From Anaerolineae bacterium (GTDB taxonomy: Bacteria; Chloroflexota; Anaerolineae; Promineifilales; Promineifilaceae): DNA of 64,000 nucleotides. Location: assembly GCA_023954475.1 (NCBI GenBank), contig JAMLHW010000008.1, positions 124,001-188,000 of the forward strand. The letters run 5' to 3'. The position numbers and the translations under genes were made by a program. How positions within the stretch are numbered: position 1 is the first letter of the stretch; every line of letters starts with the position of its first letter. Below the pieces are notes generated by a model, which ran no database searches, was not told the origin of the DNA, and saw nothing but the letters and a program-made list of their open reading frames with translations. Positions 55,246 through 64,000 of the stretch are shown here, in pieces.

Positions 55246-55683
55246 ATGATGTCATCAACTTTAATCGATATTGCCGTGAAATCACAGTCGGATGCGCCGA
55301 TGCAACGGGTGGATATGGTTTCGGCCGAAGTCTCAACCGGACTGCATGGCGATTATCACACACGCGGCAACCGTCAAGTCACTGTGGTGTTCAAAGACGC
55401 ATGGGAAACAGCCTGTGCCGAATTAGGTGTCGCATTGTCGTGGACAACGCGACGCGCCAATCTATTTGTCGATGGCGTCGTACTGAGCGATTGTGCCGGA
55501 ACGCGCATGGAAATCGGCGACGTCGTCCTCGAAGTGACTGGCGAAACGAAGCCATGCCATGTCATGGACGAAGCCTACATGGGTTTGCGCGATGCGTTGA
55601 CGCCTGATTGGCGAGCGGGTGTGACGTGTAAAATAGTGCGGAACGGTACGATGCGCGTGGGAGATGCAGTGAAAGTTTTGTAA
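55246..55683 (+). CDS. MOSC-domain protein
   Basis: 145 residues, a free-standing MOSC domain. It has GLHGDYHTRGNRQVTVVF near residue 32, RRANLFVDGV near 68 and the conserved Cys in ETKPCHVMDEAYMGLRDAL near 104. MOSC proteins handle sulfur on or near the molybdenum cofactor, which suits an operon encoding a molybdenum hydroxylase. AAGGAG precedes the ATG. Confidence 0.9.
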   Translation: MMSSTLIDIAVKSQSDAPMQRVDMVSAEVSTGLHGDYHTRGNRQVTVVFKDAWETACAELGVALSWTTRRANLFVDGVVLSDCAGTRMEIGDVVLEVTGETKPCHVMDEAYMGLRDALTPDWRAGVTCKIVRNGTMRVGDAVKVL

Positions 55684-56248: not shown

Positions 56249-56271
56249 TTCACATTGAGGAGATGGCGGCA

Positions 56272-57927
56272 ATGACAGTAGCAGGCTTATTGCAGACAGC
56301 GACTTGGTATGATTTGACGCAGGCGCTGAGCATTTTCACGCCGCCGTTTCCCGGCGAAATGCCGCTGCAAGTTCATTTCTTCAAGCGGCTGACCGGCGCG
56401 TTCGGCGGTGGACAAGGTGCCAACGGCCAATTGATCGAGTGGAGCAACAATACCGGCACGCACATTGTCGGGCCACGTGCCTTTCACTCCGGCGCAGAGG
56501 CGATCAGTGACATTCCGTTGTCGCGTCTGGCTGGACCGGGCGTCGTCGTCGATATTTCCGACACCGTTTCAGATTACAGCCTCTACACCCCGGAGATGAT
56601 CACGAGCCGTGCCGATGTGCGCAAGGGCGACATTCTGATCATCAACACCGGCTATCATCGCCATACGTTTGACCAGCCGGATACGCCTGACGCCAATGCA
56701 CAGGGCGGCATTGAGAACAAGGAATTCGGCTATTACGTGCGGCATCCGGGACCTTCGGCCGAATTTTTCCAGTGGGCGCTCGACATGGGATTGAAAGTGA
56801 TCGGCGTCGATTGCGGTTCGGCCGAACACCCGATGAACACCAACATCCGCTATCAACACGCACGTGAATTCGACAAAGCCAACGCCAAATTGCAGACAAC
56901 AAATGGCCTTGCATGGGATGATCTGTTTTCGCCGGAAGATTATCACTACCTGACACACATCGTCATGCCCCAATCGGGCCTGTTGTTCGCTGAAGGATTG
57001 GGCGGTCAAATTGCGGAAATGGGCACGCGGCGCGCGTATTTCATGCTGCTGCCGATTCCGTTTATGGAGGTTGAGAGCGCTTGGTGTAGGGCGGTGGCGT
57101 TAACCGCGCCGGATGGGATGACGCAAGATCAGTTTGATGAGCAGCTCGATTCGGCCGAATGGCTTGACATGACTGTTCCGTTCAGTGTGCAAACACCACA
57201 ATGGGCCAATTACGAACCGCTGTCGGTCAAGTACACCAAACGGGTTGGCGGCCAATACTTTGGCCTGGGACGCAACAACGCCCATTGTCGCGCCAGTTTC
57301 CACCTGGGCACGCATATGGACGGCGAGAAACATTTCCACGCCGCCGGTCGCACCATCGGCCAAATGCCGTTTGCAACGTGGTTTGGCCCAGGCGTGATCG
57401 CCGACATAGGTCATCTGGTCAGTGATTCGAGCGTCTACACACCGGCGATGGTCGAAAGTGTCGTCGCTGTGCAACCGGGTGACATCCTGATTATCAAAAC
57501 GGGCTACTATCGTTACGGCTGGATCAGCCCTGAATCGGATGAATTCCGTTACATGATCAAACATCCCGGTCCGTCACCCGATTTTGCCGACTGGTGCCTG
57601 GAAAAGAAAATCAATTGGTTGGGGGTCGATTGTGTGGCGATGGAACATCCGATGAACACGATCCAACGCATCTGGCATCCGCAGACGTTTGCCGAAGCCA
57701 ACCAGAAGCTGATCGACCAATATGGCGCGGATTGGGACGCGATCTATCCGCTCGACAAATATTATCAGGATATGCACCTCAATTTGTTCAATAAAGGCAT
57801 CATTCATGCAGAAAATCTGGGGAATGATATTGGTTCGGCCGAATCCGGACGTTACTTCATCGGCTGCTTTGTCCAGAAAGGAATGGAGCTCGCCTCTTGT
57901 TGGGGTCGCTTCGTCGCCTGGAGGTAG
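56272..57927 (+). CDS. Tandem fused cyclase-family hydrolase with a degenerate first half
   Basis: 551 residues made of two cyclase-family domains, about 1-275 and 285-551. The C-terminal copy has the intact metal motif HLGTHMDGEKHFH (about residues 343-356). The N-terminal copy reads NTGTHIVGPRAFH: the first His is Asn60 and the Asp is Val66, so it probably cannot bind metal. Both copies keep GVDCGSAEHPMN-like segments. The first half may be structural or substrate-binding. I use the ATG at 56272 because GAGGAG lies 9 nt upstream. Confidence 0.88.
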   Translation: MTVAGLLQTATWYDLTQALSIFTPPFPGEMPLQVHFFKRLTGAFGGGQGANGQLIEWSNNTGTHIVGPRAFHSGAEAISDIPLSRLAGPGVVVDISDTVSDYSLYTPEMITSRADVRKGDILIINTGYHRHTFDQPDTPDANAQGGIENKEFGYYVRHPGPSAEFFQWALDMGLKVIGVDCGSAEHPMNTNIRYQHAREFDKANAKLQTTNGLAWDDLFSPEDYHYLTHIVMPQSGLLFAEGLGGQIAEMGTRRAYFMLLPIPFMEVESAWCRAVALTAPDGMTQDQFDEQLDSAEWLDMTVPFSVQTPQWANYEPLSVKYTKRVGGQYFGLGRNNAHCRASFHLGTHMDGEKHFHAAGRTIGQMPFATWFGPGVIADIGHLVSDSSVYTPAMVESVVAVQPGDILIIKTGYYRYGWISPESDEFRYMIKHPGPSPDFADWCLEKKINWLGVDCVAMEHPMNTIQRIWHPQTFAEANQKLIDQYGADWDAIYPLDKYYQDMHLNLFNKGIIHAENLGNDIGSAESGRYFIGCFVQKGMELASCWGRFVAWR

Positions 57928-57939
57928 TTGGATATAACC

Positions 57940-60303
57940 ATGACAACACGGCAATTTGGCAAGAGAGTGAAGCGCAACGAGGATCCGCGGCTGCTGACAG
58001 GGCAGGCGTTGTTTGTCGATGATGTCGATTTGCCCAACATGGCACATATGGCGTTTGTGCGCAGTCCACATGCCCATGCGCGTATTCTCGCCATTGATAC
58101 GTCGGCGGCGCTCGAGGTTGAAGGCGTCGTTGGCGTCTATTCGGCCGAAAGCCTCGGCGACTACTGGCAGCACGGCCCACTCCTCGTATCTCCGCCACCG
58201 GTCAAAGACATTATCTTCAACCAGCGTACACAAGTTCCATTGGCCAAAGGCAAAGTGCGCTACGCCGGCGAGCCTGTCGTGTGTATCGTGGCTGAGAGCC
58301 GTTACATCGCGGAAGACGCCGCTGATCTCGTCTACGTCGATTACGAACTGCTCGACGCTGTGGTCGATTGCGAGGCTGGAACCAAACCCGACGCGCCGCA
58401 AGTCTACGACGATCTCGAACTCGCATTTAGTCACTTGAACAATGTCAACGCCCACGTCGTGCAGATTAAAGGTGATGGCGCAAACTTCGACGCGATTGCA
58501 GCACAAGCTGCCCACATTATCAAGCGCCGCTTTTATTACGATCACGGCGCATCAGCACCGATGGAAACACGGGGCATCGTTGCCGACTGGGATCGCCGCG
58601 CTCACCGCCTGACTATTTGGGACACGACGCAAGCGCCCGTCTTTATTCGCAACGGTATGGCGGCATTTCTGGGGCTTTCAGAGAATCAGGTGCGGGTGAT
58701 TGCGCCGCTCATCGGCGGCGGTTTTGGGCCGAAGATTATGATGTTTTATCCGGAGGAGATGCTGGCACCGTGGTTGAGTATGAAATTGAATCGGCCGATT
58801 AAATGGATCGAAGATCGTTCCGAACATTTCGTCGCCACCACACAGGAACGCGACCAAATCCACTACGCTGAAATGGCGCTCGACGCAGACGGCAAAATCC
58901 TGGCCGTGCGCGACCGTTTCTTCCACGACGCCGGAGCCTACGCACCCTACGGCTTGACAGTGCCGCTCAATAGCCAGTGCACGCTACTCGGTTGCTACGA
59001 CATCCCGGCTTACCACAGCACGTTTACCAGCGTCTTCACCAACAAACCCATCGTGACACCGTATCGCGGTGCAGGGCGGCAGCACGGCGTTTTTGTCATG
59101 GAGCGCTTGCTCGACATCGCGGCGCGTGAAATGGGCATCGACAAAGCCGAGATTCGCCGCCGCAACTTCATCCAGCCTGACCAGTTTCCCTATAACAACG
59201 AGATAATCTTTCAGGATTTTGCAGCACTTCGCTACGATAGCGGCAACTACGAACCGGCATTGGACACCGTACTAGAGCGAATCGGCTATCATGACTTCTA
59301 CGAATCAGACGCGCGGCGTTTAACTGAAGATGGCCGTTTGCTGGGACTCGGTCTTGTCAGCTACGTCGAAGGGACCGGCATCGGGCCATATGAAGGGGCA
59401 CGCGTCCAAGTGCAAAGCAATGGACGCGTCAGCGTTGCCACCGGTATTGGCACGCAAGGACAGGGGCATTTCACGTCATTCGCCCAAATCGTTGCCGACC
59501 AACTCGGTGTGGCGGTGACCGATGTCGATCTCGTCACGGGAGATACCGATCAATTTCATTGGGGCGCAGGCACATTTGCCAGTCGCGGCGCGGTTGTCGC
59601 TGGGAATGCCATCAACGAGGCGGCGCGGGATGTGCGCGACAAGATTCTCAAACTGGCGAGCGAAAAACTCGAAGTTGCAGACGCCGATCTTGAGCTGACC
59701 GGCGGCACAGTGCGCGTCAAAGGTGTGCCGAGCAGTGCTATATCGCTGGGTCAATTGGCGCAGGAAGCTAATCCGATGCGGGGCGCGGTCAGGCCGGGTA
59801 CCGAGCCAGGGTTGGAGTCGAGCAACTATTTTGGCCCTGAATACGGTGCGACCGCCAGTGGTATCCATGCGATGATCGTCGCTGTCGATCCTGAGACGTT
59901 TGATGTTGAAATTCTGCAGTATGCCGTGGTACACGATTGCGGCGCGGTGATCAACCCGTTGATAGTTGACGGTCAGATTCACGGTGGCGTTGCCCAGGGT
60001 ATCGGCAATGCGTTTTACGAGAAGTTGGCTTATGATAGCAGCGGACAACTGCTCAGTGGCACGTTTATGGATTATTTGCTGCCTACAGCGCTGGATGTGC
60101 CGCGGATGTCAGTGGCGCATATGGAAACGCTGTCGCCGCTCAATCCGCTGGGGATCAAAGGTGTTGGCGAGGCAGGTGCGATTCCCGTGGGGCCGCTGTT
60201 TGTACAGGCGGTGGAAGATGCGCTGCATGTGACCGGCATTGAGATTCTGGAGTGTCCGATCAGTCCAAGCCGGATATGGGAACTGGTTAACCTGTTATCA
60301 TGA
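57940..60303 (+). CDS. Molybdenum hydroxylase large subunit (xanthine dehydrogenase/CoxL family)
   Basis: 787 residues. Molybdopterin-contact motifs are IGGGFGPKIMMFYPEE near 261 and PYRGAGRQHG near 363, which matches the form II (GAGR) active-site loop, not the CO dehydrogenase CSFR loop. GTGIGPYEGA lies near 470, and the base Glu is in GIKGVGEAGAIPVGP near 740. It hydroxylates a ring or aldehyde carbon using water. It probably pairs with the FAD and 2Fe-2S subunits about 11 kb upstream. ATG at 57940. Confidence 0.93.
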   Translation: MTTRQFGKRVKRNEDPRLLTGQALFVDDVDLPNMAHMAFVRSPHAHARILAIDTSAALEVEGVVGVYSAESLGDYWQHGPLLVSPPPVKDIIFNQRTQVPLAKGKVRYAGEPVVCIVAESRYIAEDAADLVYVDYELLDAVVDCEAGTKPDAPQVYDDLELAFSHLNNVNAHVVQIKGDGANFDAIAAQAAHIIKRRFYYDHGASAPMETRGIVADWDRRAHRLTIWDTTQAPVFIRNGMAAFLGLSENQVRVIAPLIGGGFGPKIMMFYPEEMLAPWLSMKLNRPIKWIEDRSEHFVATTQERDQIHYAEMALDADGKILAVRDRFFHDAGAYAPYGLTVPLNSQCTLLGCYDIPAYHSTFTSVFTNKPIVTPYRGAGRQHGVFVMERLLDIAAREMGIDKAEIRRRNFIQPDQFPYNNEIIFQDFAALRYDSGNYEPALDTVLERIGYHDFYESDARRLTEDGRLLGLGLVSYVEGTGIGPYEGARVQVQSNGRVSVATGIGTQGQGHFTSFAQIVADQLGVAVTDVDLVTGDTDQFHWGAGTFASRGAVVAGNAINEAARDVRDKILKLASEKLEVADADLELTGGTVRVKGVPSSAISLGQLAQEANPMRGAVRPGTEPGLESSNYFGPEYGATASGIHAMIVAVDPETFDVEILQYAVVHDCGAVINPLIVDGQIHGGVAQGIGNAFYEKLAYDSSGQLLSGTFMDYLLPTALDVPRMSVAHMETLSPLNPLGIKGVGEAGAIPVGPLFVQAVEDALHVTGIEILECPISPSRIWELVNLLS

Positions 60304-61310
60304 ATGATTTTACTGGAGGCGGGATGTTGAGTTCGGCCGAAATGGCTGCAGCACGCCATCATACGTACACATTGTTGAGTCGGCTGTATCATGAAGGCGT
60401 TTCGGCCGAAACAATACCGTATGTTGAAGCTATCCCGACACTCGCTCGCCATTTGAGTCAGTTTGACGATTTTGCCGCAACTCACCATGGAATCTTTCGA
60501 TTCGACATTTTTCCCTACGAGAGCATGTTTCGTGGCACGACGGGACTTGTCGGCGGACTAATCACCGAGGCAGTTGGCGCTGCCTGGCACAGCAGCAGGA
60601 TAATGCCACCGTCAGAACCTGATCACATTGGCAATGAAATGGCTTTATTGGCATTTCTGGCCGGCTCAGAGGCGGACGCCACTGTTGCAGAGAAGCCCAT
60701 CGTAGCGCGTCAGATGCAGGCAAAGCAGCACGAATTGCTAATGAACCACGTGCTGCCGTGGTTGCCGTCTTTCCTTACGGCGCTGCGTGTCAATGGACAT
60801 CCGTTTTACGTCGCCCTGGCTGATCTGACATGGGAAGTTGTTGCAGAGCATATGGCGGCCCGGCCGCCGCTAACTGATTTGAATGATGTTTTGCCGTCTA
60901 CACCCAATATTTTGGATGATGAACGATCCAGTATCAAAGACATCGTGCGTTTTTTGGCGATACCGGCTTACAGCGGTTTGTGGTTCGGCCGAAATACGAT
61001 CATCAAGCTGGGACGCGACTGCAATTTGCCGCGCGGTTTTGGTGGACGCATTGACATGGCGATGGCTTTGTTTCGCTCTGCCGTGGCCTACGATGAAGTA
61101 GAAACATTGCTGTCGGCAATTGGCGCGTTGGCAGCACAATGGTCAACGCACTACAGAGCTATGCAAACAGGCGCAACCCATTTGGAGTCTTTCATCGCTT
61201 TGTGGGATCGGCGCGTTCAGGATACGGGTAACATGCTTGCGCGTATGGTGCAGATTGTCACTTCTGAACCGTTGAATGGGAATTCGCAATTAATCCGTGA
61301 AATCGATTGA
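60300..61310 (+). CDS. TorD-like molybdoenzyme chaperone
   Basis: 336 residues, all helical. The TorD/DmsD-type stretch FDIFPYESMFRGTTGLVGG is near residue 76, followed by DHIGNEMALLAFLAGSEA. TorD proteins hold molybdoenzymes for cofactor loading, usually those of the DMSO reductase family. Here the gene overlaps the stop of a xanthine-dehydrogenase-family subunit (ATGA). It is longer than usual for TorD (about 200 residues), with an extra C-terminal part. Confidence 0.75.
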   Translation: MNDFTGGGMLSSAEMAAARHHTYTLLSRLYHEGVSAETIPYVEAIPTLARHLSQFDDFAATHHGIFRFDIFPYESMFRGTTGLVGGLITEAVGAAWHSSRIMPPSEPDHIGNEMALLAFLAGSEADATVAEKPIVARQMQAKQHELLMNHVLPWLPSFLTALRVNGHPFYVALADLTWEVVAEHMAARPPLTDLNDVLPSTPNILDDERSSIKDIVRFLAIPAYSGLWFGRNTIIKLGRDCNLPRGFGGRIDMAMALFRSAVAYDEVETLLSAIGALAAQWSTHYRAMQTGATHLESFIALWDRRVQDTGNMLARMVQIVTSEPLNGNSQLIREID

Positions 61311-61334
61311 TCGATCATTTCCGAGAGGTATAAT
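61307..61334 (+). promoter_or_regulatory. Promoter for the Rieske oxygenase transcript
   Basis: TTGATC (61307-61312), a 16-bp spacer and a perfect TATAAT (61329-61334). The -35 overlaps the last codons of the TorD-like gene. The predicted start near 61341 leaves a leader of about 220 nt. Confidence 0.65.
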
Positions 61335-61559: not shown

Positions 61560-62786
61560 ATGATCAAAAATTTCTGGTACGCCATTGAATTTAGCGAAAA
61601 GGTTACCCGCGAACCGATGCGACTGACCATTCTCGGGCAGGAATTGGTACTTTATCGCGATACACAAAACAATCCGGTTGTCATGAGCGATCTGTGTGTC
61701 CATCGCGGCGGCGCACTGTCTGATGGTTTTACCGAAGGTGACTGCATCCGCTGTCCGTATCACGGTTGGAAATACGAACCAAATGGCGCTTGCATTGAGA
61801 TTCCCGCCAATCCGCCCGGTCGCAGCATTCCTAAAAAAGCGCGCGTCGATGCCTATCCTTCAGTTGACAGATACGGCTGGATCTGGGCATTTCTTGGCGA
61901 TTTGCCCGAAGCAGAGCGACCACCGATGCCCGAATTGCCCCACTTCGACAATCCCGATTTGCGTCGTACAACCGGCATCTATGAGTGGGACGTCCACTAC
62001 GCACGCGCATTGGAAAACGGTATCGACTTTTCGCATGGCGCGTGGGTTCATGGCGGTTCATTCGGTAACCGCGACGAACCGGAAATCGAAGATTACAATG
62101 TCGAATACATCAACGATCTGTCTGCGCGCGCGACGATTGATTTTATGCCCAACCGCGCCAAAGGTTTGTGGAGCCGTCTTTACAAGAGCGATAAGGAACG
62201 AGCGCCTATCAAGGTCACCAATACATGGTGGATGCCAAATGTCACCTTGCTTGAAGTGCAGTTGCCGTTCGGATTTCAACGGCTGTTCAACGCCCATGTG
62301 CCGGTCAACGAAAACAAAACTATCACTAAATGGCAGTTGTTGCGTGACTTTTTCAAAGGCAAATGGGCAGACCGCGACGCAGAGCGACGCGTGATCAAGA
62401 TTTTCAACGAGGATCGGCCGATGGTGATGGCGCAGCGCCCCGAATTGTTGCCGTATGATTTGGCGGCAGAATTGCATGTCAGGTCAGATGCTATTCAAGT
62501 GGCGTTCCGCAAAACGCGCAACAAATATCTCGACATGGGATGGGGTATCGACATGCACCGCATTCGCGCCGAATACGCTAACTACCAGGCTGTGGTCATT
62601 CCGTCTCCGGCGCGACGCGAAGTGCCGGAACTGGCTAATGCGTGGATCATGAAGGAAGTTCCGGTAAAAGGTCAGGATGAGCCGGACGATAGCAAATTGC
62701 GCCGCCCGGGCGACCCACGCCGGTCGGCAAAGCGTTCAACTAGCACCAATGGCGCTGATTCCGACGTGTATGAGGACTTTAATTAG
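61560..62786 (+). CDS. Rieske non-heme iron oxygenase (pheophorbide-oxygenase-like)
   Basis: 408 residues. The Rieske cluster is bound by CVHRGG (Cys46, His48) and CPYHGW (Cys65, His68). Mononuclear iron ligands are in ENGIDFSHGAWVH near 150-165. It hydroxylates or cleaves a ring with O2, taking electrons from a reductase not seen here. The next gene encodes a protein like red chlorophyll catabolite reductase, which recalls the plant pheophorbide a oxygenase pair. The C-terminal 35 residues are low-complexity. AGGGAG precedes the ATG. Confidence 0.9.
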   Translation: MIKNFWYAIEFSEKVTREPMRLTILGQELVLYRDTQNNPVVMSDLCVHRGGALSDGFTEGDCIRCPYHGWKYEPNGACIEIPANPPGRSIPKKARVDAYPSVDRYGWIWAFLGDLPEAERPPMPELPHFDNPDLRRTTGIYEWDVHYARALENGIDFSHGAWVHGGSFGNRDEPEIEDYNVEYINDLSARATIDFMPNRAKGLWSRLYKSDKERAPIKVTNTWWMPNVTLLEVQLPFGFQRLFNAHVPVNENKTITKWQLLRDFFKGKWADRDAERRVIKIFNEDRPMVMAQRPELLPYDLAAELHVRSDAIQVAFRKTRNKYLDMGWGIDMHRIRAEYANYQAVVIPSPARREVPELANAWIMKEVPVKGQDEPDDSKLRRPGDPRRSAKRSTSTNGADSDVYEDFN

Positions 62787-62788
62787 TC

Positions 62789-63517
62789 ATGTCGCTTGCA
62801 CATCGGCTTGCGCAGAACACACTGGACGCCATTATCGGCCGATTTGACCTGACTGAGCACGGCAACCCCTACAAAGTGCTGTCCAGCCCAATGTCGCCGG
62901 AGTCGGTCGGTACGGTACGCCTCTTTTCCGGAGGGCCGATTCACAAACTGGTCTACATTGGTCTTGCGGTGCCAATGATCGGCCTCGATTCGCACATGGT
63001 GTTTGCCTTTACGGCGCCGGATAGTGCTGTCCCGCATTTCACGCTCGACTCCGTGCTGGCGGGACCTCACTTTGCGTTCCATCTCGACTTGATTCCACGC
63101 GTTGACCTGGGTGCGAATCTGGCGTATATCGACGAAGTGATGCATCCGCTGACGCCGTTGGTCGAAACAGCACGCGATATTGAAGGTCTGGAGCGCGCTC
63201 ATCTGACGCCGCGCCAACTGGCGGTTATGTCGCCGTGGATGTTGGCATATCGCGCCAGTGAAGATGCATTTGCGCAGATTGACGGACATGTTGCGCAGTA
63301 CATGGCGCACTGGTTTGACATTGTCAGGCGTGGTGTTTCGGCCGAAACCATCGCCTCACTCAACCACACCGATTTCGCTGCACGTGATCAGCGCAATCGC
63401 AACGCCATCTTCGATCCGGAAGTCGACAAAGTGTGGGCACAGGTCGCCCGTCTCGTCGGTGACGACACCAGCGAAGAACTGCGCGAATTGCTGCGCACGC
63501 AAGCATTGCCTGCCTGA
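62789..63517 (+). CDS. Red chlorophyll catabolite reductase-like / bilin reductase-superfamily protein
   Basis: 242 residues. Residues 83-116 (HFTLDSVLAGPHFAFHLDLI then PRVDLGANLAYIDE) follow the same order as the plant reductase core, where a D-L-P-H-R-K-D-L-X-X-N-X-X-Y stretch is found. The C-terminal RDQRNRNAIFDPEVDKVW also fits. Plant enzymes of this family reduce open-chain tetrapyrroles with ferredoxin. The gene starts 2 nt after the Rieske stop. The match was made from memory, so function remains a proposal. Confidence 0.6.
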   Translation: MSLAHRLAQNTLDAIIGRFDLTEHGNPYKVLSSPMSPESVGTVRLFSGGPIHKLVYIGLAVPMIGLDSHMVFAFTAPDSAVPHFTLDSVLAGPHFAFHLDLIPRVDLGANLAYIDEVMHPLTPLVETARDIEGLERAHLTPRQLAVMSPWMLAYRASEDAFAQIDGHVAQYMAHWFDIVRRGVSAETIASLNHTDFAARDQRNRNAIFDPEVDKVWAQVARLVGDDTSEELRELLRTQALPA

Positions 63518-63534: not shown

Positions 63535-64000
63535 ATGGTATCGCTTGTTTACATTGGTTTTGGCATCCTGAAACTGGTCTTACTCATCATGGCCGTGCGC
63601 GAACTGATCGTATACAAGCGTCTGTATTTATTGTTTTTGGTGCTGACGCTGTTTGGTCTGGCGTATGATAACTTCAGCGTGGGATTCGGCCGATTTATCG
63701 GTGAAGGTGACCTGCTGCAATCACTGAACACACCGCGCTACGTGATCCACGCCCTGATCACACCGCTGTTAATCCTGGTAGGCTTGCATCTGGCACGCAA
63801 TGCCGGCGTCTCATGGGCATTCGGCCGAAAGACTACGGCGTTTTTCATCGTCGTCACGATTTTGCTGATTTCCCTCGGTGCATTTCTAGATATAGCCCGT
63901 CTGGACCTGGAAGTCGCGTTTGACGGCGATGCAATTCGCTACGCCAACGGCGCATCAGTCGGGCCGCCAGTACCCGCGATTGTGACCGTAATCATGCTCA
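63535..64000 (+). CDS. Multi-pass membrane protein (cut by the window end)
   Basis: An open frame of 155 codons runs from the ATG at 63535 off the end of the window. At least four hydrophobic helices are visible (VYIGFGILKLVLLIMAV, LYLLFLVLTLFGLAY, VIHALITPLLILVGLHLA, TAFFIVVTILLISLGAFL). CAGGAG lies 9 nt before the ATG. It follows the reductase-like gene by 17 nt and is probably in the same transcript. Family unknown. Confidence 0.75.
   Translation, partial: MVSLVYIGFGILKLVLLIMAVRELIVYKRLYLLFLVLTLFGLAYDNFSVGFGRFIGEGDLLQSLNTPRYVIHALITPLLILVGLHLARNAGVSWAFGRKTTAFFIVVTILLISLGAFLDIARLDLEVAFDGDAIRYANGASVGPPVPAIVTVIML

Follow-up and report, generated by a model that had tools for sequence, protein, structure and literature searches.

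What could a Rieske oxygenase and a protein resembling red chlorophyll catabolite reductase (RCCR) do side by side in a bacterium of the Anaerolineae? The question was raised by a 64,000-nucleotide stretch of DNA, here called the window (contig C25:124001-188000), from a genome of 5.12 Mb that is in 26 contigs and about 98% complete. A preliminary description of the window had reported the two open reading frames 2 nucleotides apart, in a piece of genome without photosynthesis genes, and had proposed that they could form a pair degrading or salvaging tetrapyrroles or pyrroles, possibly by a route ancestral to or parallel with that of plants, where pheophorbide a oxygenase (PAO) and RCCR act. 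Both frames were confirmed. Positions refer to the window unless a contig or locus is named.

61560-62786, + strand: Rieske non-heme iron oxygenase of the VanA_C type, 408 amino acids (from Pfam, PDB relatives, ligand conservation and family alignment A3)
62789-63517, + strand: R2, a protein of the superfamily of RCCR and the bilin reductases (FDBRs), 242 amino acids (from profile, AlphaFold model, Foldseek, VIA and alignment A1)

The gap between the stop codon of the Rieske gene and the ATG of R2 was exactly 2 nucleotides (62787-62788). The photosynthetic reaction centre family PF00124 was not found in the whole genome, and a control genome gave a match. We give about an even chance to the reading that the pair provides a bacterial tetrapyrrole catabolism with its oxygenase and with one of its two reductases; the substrate of this catabolism would most likely be a chlorophyll derivative from decaying phototrophs.

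Conservation and distribution of the gene pair

Loci were selected by R2, from one genome per species, some of them metagenome bins; the genes of GC-rich loci were called with a home-made caller based on codon usage. Relatives of R2 with 39-77% identity were found in 73 loci of the Chloroflexota, Actinomycetota, Myxococcota, Gammaproteobacteria and one cyanobacterial bin, the actinomycete hosts being Nocardioides, Mumia, Nocardia, Micromonospora, Dactylosporangium, Streptomyces, Actinomadura and others. In 65 of the 73 judgeable copies, R2 was directly preceded on its own strand by a Rieske homologue, and three more copies were too near a contig end. One of the eight exceptions was L021, where the Rieske gene overlaps R2 by about 40 nucleotides and was missed by the threshold. 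Since the loci had been chosen by R2, the co-occurrence of both genes was checked separately in 20 close relatives. Exactly three of these genomes had Rieske homologues of at least 50% identity, and it was these three that had R2; weaker Rieske relatives (at most 36% identity over most of the protein) were present without R2. The R2 gene was found to be under purifying selection, with a dN of 0.15 and a dS of 1.95 against the 77%-identical orthologue in L003.

The adjacency of the two genes is far above chance, and these results support a conserved unit of Rieske oxygenase and R2 in mostly non-photosynthetic bacteria. That the two are mere neighbours without a common function is extremely unlikely; the eight copies in which the Rieske gene was not scored directly upstream would suit such a view, but adjacency was kept across several phyla and co-occurrence among the relatives was exact. 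R2 is rare; an evenly drawn sample of 301 Chloroflexota genomes had it in 2. The patchy spread over phyla, together with the kept gene order, suggests that the unit was spread by horizontal transfer.

Two loci labelled Bifidobacterium breve (L071, CAMCVY010000012.1, and L072, CALQPL010000041.1) resembled the loci L073 and L074 of uncultured actinobacteria, and their labels are probably wrong. The 7-kb contig L024 (JASJDH010000513.1), binned as Leptolyngbyaceae, contained R2 and two Rieske genes and represents either a member from a cyanobacterium or contamination.

The Rieske oxygenase

The identification of the first protein as a Rieske oxygenase was upheld by the Pfam Rieske (6.7e-21) and VanA_C domains (PF19112; 2.5e-27, 96.7 bits against a cut-off of 23.5). 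The cluster ligands C46, H48, C65 and H68 (CxH...CxxH) were present, as was an iron site of H159, H164 and D285 with the bridging D156, and 26-27 of 29 family members kept the cluster and iron ligands. VanA_C was found in 27 of these 29, and the PaO domain (PF08417) in none of them at E<=1. A C-terminal CxxC motif is the hallmark of the PAO/TIC55/PTC52 group; the window protein lacks it, and its translation contains no cysteine beyond residue 78. With VanA_C, without a PaO domain and without a late cysteine, the protein falls among the VanA-type Rieske oxygenases, outside the PAO/CAO/TIC55 group. PAO itself was ruled out as its identity, the PaO domain being found in no family member.

The nearest solved structures were SxtDIOX/GxtA, SxtT, NdmA and NdmB (E 1e-30 to 9e-28), and by its sequence the enzyme is an oxygenase of the VanA/NdmA/SxtT type, not a PAO. 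The proposal that the pair is ancestral to the plant route therefore found no support. A grouping of the Rieske protein with demethylases had been named beforehand as evidence against the preliminary reading, and the kinship with NdmA, NdmB and SxtT is such a grouping as regards ancestry. By analogy, the enzyme may nevertheless play a PAO-like role in parallel with plants. The methylxanthine N-demethylases NdmA and NdmB, SxtT/GxtA (SxtDIOX) and the dicamba O-demethylase DdmC share its domain make-up and ligands and are its best matches of known structure (E 1e-30 to 2e-22), whereas the partner of the window enzyme is an RCCR-type reductase and its neighbours suggest no demethylation substrate.

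The RCCR-type proteins R2 and R1

R2 alone reached 12.8 bits against the RCCR family (PF06405), below the gathering cut-off of 24.9, and a PDB search with the single sequence gave only a spurious match. A profile of 39 R2 homologues (A1) was more informative. Among 177,635 PDB sequences, Arabidopsis RCCR (AtRCCR) was its top match (E 0.0011), followed by phytochromobilin synthase. PF06405 was matched at E<=0.1 by 21 of the 39 members (best 3.6e-5); the FDBR family PF05996 was matched by 4 of the 39 at E<=0.1 and not by the window R2. An AlphaFold model built from A1 had a mean pLDDT of 95.9 and a pTM of 0.93. RCCR, the FDBRs and the Ycf2/Orf2971-FtsHi motor subunit with the RCCR fold accounted for all 45 Foldseek matches of this model at E<=0.001, and the best was AtRCCR (2zxk, E 2.6e-10). 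The VIA Z was 23.0 for PebB, 22.5 for HY2, 22.5 for PebA, 22.0 for RCCR (over 230 residues, root-mean-square deviation 3.0) and 21.7 for PcyA; most coproporphyrinogen oxidases followed at about 15-16, and values then fell below 4. From the Foldseek and VIA results on the model, R2 can be firmly assigned the RCCR/FDBR fold, so the likeness claimed in the preliminary description was borne out by profile, Foldseek and VIA together, the single-sequence match to PF06405 being sub-threshold. The enzymes of known activity with this fold all act on tetrapyrroles (PMC13193486). The chloroplast motor subunit (PDB 8xqw_H and 8xks_P) matched the fold with a VIA Z of 19 and apparently represents a use of it outside such pathways.

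The residues D87 and D213 of R2 were invariant in 39 of 39 homologues. D87 was aligned with the Glu154 position of AtRCCR (P-x-F-x-x-E), with an Asp in place of the Glu. We take the catalytic acids of AtRCCR to be Glu154 and Asp291 in this numbering. D213 was paired with the Asp-Pro of HY2; when R2 is aligned directly with AtRCCR, this point is displaced by two residues, so D213 is probably, on sequence alignment, the equivalent of the second catalytic acid of RCCR and the bilin reductases, which falls short of proof. The FDBRs (PcyA, PebA, PebB, HY2 and pre-PcyA) share with R2 the fold (VIA Z 20-23), an Asp at the P-x-F-x-x-D/N/E position and, in the sequence alignment, the C-terminal Asp-Pro motif of HY2. 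Asp105 is one of the catalytic residues of PcyA (PMC10151467), and it was taken as the counterpart of the position of AtRCCR Glu154 and R2 D87.

The genome contains a paralogue, R1, near C25:102.7-103.5 kb on the - strand, opposite to the pair. R1 proteins pass the PF06405 cut-off (24.9 bits) with 51-56 bits, the copy of this genome with 51.3-51.4. The profile of 35 R1 homologues (A2) matched AtRCCR in the PDB with an E of 6.3e-21 and the FDBRs with 2e-8 or worse, so that by sequence R1 is clearly a member of the RCCR family. The R1 and R2 families matched over their whole length (hhalign probability 99, E 3e-18), and D234 of R1, the equivalent of Asp291, was invariant (35/35). R1 is likewise rare, being found in 4 of 400 Chloroflexota genomes; three of the four had an R2-type match, usually unlinked.

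The wider gene cluster

The second RCCR paralogue R1 sits inside most of the related clusters. Many Chloroflexota contained the order GntR, a small DUF3598-like protein, DUF3891, LIP2, LIP3, (R1), alpha/beta hydrolase, Rieske, R2, continued by LIP4, SDR, an HMG-CoA-lyase-like protein (sometimes with a flavin reductase), LeuC-like, LeuD-like, CoA-transferase III and a hydantoinase-like protein. The Actinomycetota had a core of R1, hydrolase, Rieske, R2, LIP4 and SDR, to which CN-hydrolase, FAD monooxygenase, ALDH and a maleate-isomerase/arylmalonate-decarboxylase-type enzyme were added, sometimes with an isochorismatase-type amidase and a methylisocitrate-lyase/PEP-mutase-type enzyme. The commonest adjacent pairs were Rieske-R2 (58), hydrolase-Rieske (52), R2-LIP4 (46), LIP4-SDR (44) and R1-hydrolase (39). 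An independent search with R1 found loci in three other Chloroflexota (G112, G134 and G370) with genes of the kind seen in the actinomycete clusters: those for CN-hydrolase and FAD monooxygenase, partly joined by those for ALDH, isochorismatase, maleate-isomerase-like and PEP-mutase enzymes. The R1 locus of G370 also contained a different Rieske oxygenase, of the Ring_hydroxyl_A type (L092:12829-13872, - strand), whose nearest solved relative is carnitine monooxygenase; it is a second association of a Rieske enzyme with an RCCR-type protein.

In the genome of the window, the system is split over three places:

C25:102.7-105.2 kb: GntR, LIP3 and R1
from C25:185.6 kb: Rieske, R2, membrane protein, LIP4, SDR, RpiB-like protein, flavin reductase/HMG-CoA-lyase fusion, then an ACAD-type protein and LIP5
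C6:1.9-6.4 kb: LeuC-like, LeuD-like, CoA-transferase and hydantoinase-like proteins

The LeuD-like protein matched the LeuD/DmdB family, and the hydantoinase-like enzyme is encoded at C6:4930-6414. A single open reading frame (L080:6982-8364, C25:190981-192363) fuses a flavin reductase of the HsaB/FerA type to the HMG-CoA-lyase-like enzyme, and this fusion recurs in related Chloroflexota, e.g., in L006 and L095.

LIP4 gave no sequence match in the PDB. Its model (pLDDT 94.6) showed two lipocalin-type barrels and resembled a Nostoc DUF3598 protein (2o62) and BFA1 (5yvf) with a Z of 19.5; with lower Z, its halves resembled nitrobindin and S- and T-type phycobiliprotein lyases. Nitrobindin is a heme-binding barrel. 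The modelled structure is compatible with pigment binding, of which it is no proof. The alpha/beta hydrolases of the clusters contained a conserved GHSAGG, Asp and His and weakly matched PETase-like, dienelactone-hydrolase, PAF-acetylhydrolase and chlorophyllase models, the last in 10 of 23 members. Their sequences allow them to be called carboxylester hydrolases, and nothing narrower.

The nicotinate catabolism ends in a module of the dimethylmaleate hydratase DmdAB and dimethylmalate lyase, and cyclic-imide or imidase routes are comparable. The clusters resemble these routes in the LeuC/LeuD-like pair and in the hydantoinase-like, methylisocitrate-lyase-family and maleate-isomerase-like enzymes, and they differ in that their genes stand with those of a Rieske oxygenase and of reductases of the RCCR type. 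It could be asked whether recruitment gave the RCCR fold a substrate other than a tetrapyrrole, e.g., another N-heterocycle, within an ordinary aromatic or heterocycle catabolism. The hydantoinase-like, isochorismatase, maleate-isomerase-like, CN-hydrolase and FAD-monooxygenase proteins have roles in nicotinate, pyrimidine and other N-heterocycle routes as well, the Rieske enzyme is nearest to caffeine N-demethylases and saxitoxin-tailoring oxygenases, and subunits with the RCCR fold are found in the Ycf2-FtsHi motor. However, two proteins of the RCCR superfamily and several of lipocalin type share a cluster, and the acidic D87 and D213 of R2 are invariant; we consider this explanation rather unlikely.

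It is very improbable that the pair synthesises a pigment or chromophore, such as a bilin for a photoreceptor or globin, in the manner of pre-PcyA. Its RCCR/FDBR fold would allow this, and pre-PcyA enzymes are present in Chloroflexi (PMC10151467); the neighbours in pre-PcyA clusters are a heme oxygenase, a BBAG globin, two V4R proteins and an Fe-S protein (PMC10151467). The recurrent neighbour families identified in our study include none of this set and no phytochrome (no direct search with globin or V4R models was made), and are instead degradative enzymes and a GntR regulator. Heme oxygenase (PF01126) was not found in the about 98% complete genome, and three control genomes gave matches. 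A bilin synthesis fed by heme oxygenase was rejected on this ground.

A possible route of tetrapyrrole degradation

The gene order, family membership, fold, residue conservation and co-inheritance described above were observed; from them we infer a substrate, a sequence of steps and each of the reactions. An alpha/beta hydrolase, usually encoded just upstream, would cut an ester such as the phytyl or methyl ester. The Rieske oxygenase, with O2, would then attack the macrocycle or an early product and open the ring, like plant PAO. The coloured open-chain product would be reduced by R2 and R1, with electrons from ferredoxin and the acids of the RCCR/FDBR pocket, while double-lipocalin proteins might hold the pigment intermediates. 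The chain would be cut to one-ring imides or lactams, which the imidase-like hydantoinase and the amidases would open to substituted maleates. These would be hydrated or isomerised by the LeuCD/DmdB-like hydratase or the maleate-isomerase-like enzyme, and activation by the CoA-transferase and cleavage by the HMG-CoA-lyase-like or methylisocitrate-lyase-like enzyme would yield pyruvate and an acyl-CoA.

An oxygenase from a class that attacks rings, two proteins of a fold whose characterised enzymes act on tetrapyrroles, an esterase, lipocalin-type proteins and a module suited to maleimides and maleates together fit a stepwise catabolism of a tetrapyrrole. By analogy with the nicotinate and cyclic-imide pathways, the hydrolysis of substituted maleimides would lead to maleamates and maleates and could lead further to pyruvate and acyl-CoA, and the downstream enzymes would, by their families, fit a catabolism of substituted maleimides and maleates. 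Low-molecular products of chlorophyll include maleimides and hematinic acid (PMC7318184), and when chlorophyll or heme loses its bridges by oxidation, the products are methyl ethyl maleimide, methyl vinyl maleimide and hematinic acid (PMC7318184). The tetrapyrrole- or pyrrole-degrading pair of the preliminary description stood in so far as the unit is conserved and its partner genes fit degradation; the RCCR cut-off was passed by R1 and not by R2.

Chlorophyll derivatives are favoured over heme bilins since no heme oxygenase was found, R1 is nearer to RCCR than to the FDBRs and an esterase gene is usually alongside. The competing view is that heme-derived or phycobilin pigments from outside (biliverdin, bilirubin or phycobilins) are degraded, with R1 and R2 as bilin reductases and the Rieske enzyme acting on a bilin or pyrrole fragment. 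The fold and the acidic residues suit the FDBRs equally well, the VIA Z of PebB (23.0) and RCCR (22.0) being a tie, the maleimide-type end products would be identical, and bacterial pre-PcyA bilin reductases are known from heterotrophs, Chloroflexi among them (PMC10151467). We nevertheless judge it unlikely, because a canonical heme oxygenase was not found in the genome, R1 matched RCCR better than the FDBRs in the PDB (E 6e-21 against 2e-8), and a bilin acid that is already open needs neither a ring-attacking oxygenase nor an esterase.

Several points weigh against a degradation of chlorophyll derivatives by the pair and its cluster. The Rieske enzyme is, on sequence, outside the PAO family, the reactions of all members of the pathway were assigned by homology, and the downstream enzymes are broad families serving many pathways. 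The best solved relatives of the cluster hydrolase are polyester hydrolases, and no alpha/beta hydrolase of the cluster was found in the genome of the window in a search with the L003 orthologue. R1 keeps the C-terminal Asp, but at the Glu154 position it had Ala in 32 of 35 and Val in 3 of 35 homologues, so R1 and R2 likely catalyse different reactions. The Mg-dechelatase STAY-GREEN (SGR, PF12638) was not seen in this genome or in 45 cluster-bearing genomes, in a search without a proper positive control; since no control match was obtained in the 45-genome search, its absence is not claimed.

Compared with the plant PAO/phyllobilin pathway, the bacterial system likewise combines a Rieske oxygenase with a reductase of the RCCR superfamily, R1 lying above the RCCR Pfam cut-off and R2 having the same fold. 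Unlike in plants, the Rieske enzyme is of the VanA_C type, without the PaO domain and the C-terminal cysteines, there are two different RCCR-type paralogues, and the clusters add lipocalin-like proteins and enzymes for the breakdown of one-ring products. It differs from the FDBR systems in that the genome of the window had no heme oxygenase match. Bacterial sequences related to RCCR, from Candidatus Schekmanbacteria, have served as an outgroup in FDBR trees (PMC10151467), and homologues of RCCR have been recorded from Nostoc and Anabaena (PMC2716323). No description of a bacterial Rieske-RCCR pair or of this cluster was found in the open-licence literature, though earlier work may exist, nor was a bacterial gene set for the ring opening and full degradation of chlorophyll found described there.

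About 10^12 kg of chlorophyll is made and degraded every year (PMC7318184), and the pair may belong to an undescribed bacterial route for feeding on chlorophyll or a similar pigment. The conserved cluster is present in culturable Nocardioides, Micromonospora, Nocardia and Streptomyces, which makes the question directly testable. An Anaerolineae STAY-GREEN homologue (AbSGR-h) removes Mg from chlorophyll (PMC8531759), and bacterial STAY-GREEN homologues were proposed as donors to plants (PMC8531759, PMC11006732). AbSGR-h is similar in being a protein of non-photosynthetic Anaerolineae with a chlorophyll-degrading activity, from a group proposed as the donor of a plant gene; it differs in that Mg removal is another step, and no SGR was seen with the cluster in the search mentioned above. 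Beside this earlier proposal of a non-photosynthetic bacterial source of the plant Mg-dechelatase, the present finding bears on the origin of plant RCCR. A possible but tentative view, which we consider less likely than not, is that of a horizontally spread, complete bacterial mineralisation of chlorophyll with ring opening by a non-PAO Rieske enzyme, two RCCR-family reductases, lipocalin carriers and imidase, hydratase, CoA-transferase and lyase steps; plant RCCR would, if this is true, have been recruited out of a family of bacterial catabolic enzymes.

Other features of the locus

Further features were found on both sides of the pair:

61307-61334, + strand: sigma-70-like promoter match ahead of the Rieske gene (motif match)
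63535-64000, continuing past the window end, + strand: 5' part of a membrane protein gene (in full 230 amino acids, C25:187535-188227), without a Pfam match

The membrane protein gene begins 17 nucleotides after R2 in the same direction, and homologues of its product were found in only a few related loci. One promoter match was observed against 0.7 expected by chance, and it is therefore not evidence of function. Rfam gave no match around the pair.

Upstream of the pair, a MOSC protein (55246-55683) and a two-copy "putative cyclase" protein of the kynurenine-formamidase type (56263-57927) were found, followed just ahead of it by the large subunit of a molybdenum hydroxylase of the xanthine-dehydrogenase family (57928-60303) and a chaperone-type protein like TorD/DmsD (60300-61310). 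This neighbourhood is not common to the other clusters; the R1 locus L093 of G134 also lies with genes of the molybdenum-hydroxylase type. Further along the contig, at C25:92-94.7 kb (L078:2-2674), a large subtilisin-like protein was found to contain a C-terminal run of short Y-Y/F-W-N-G-G repeats.

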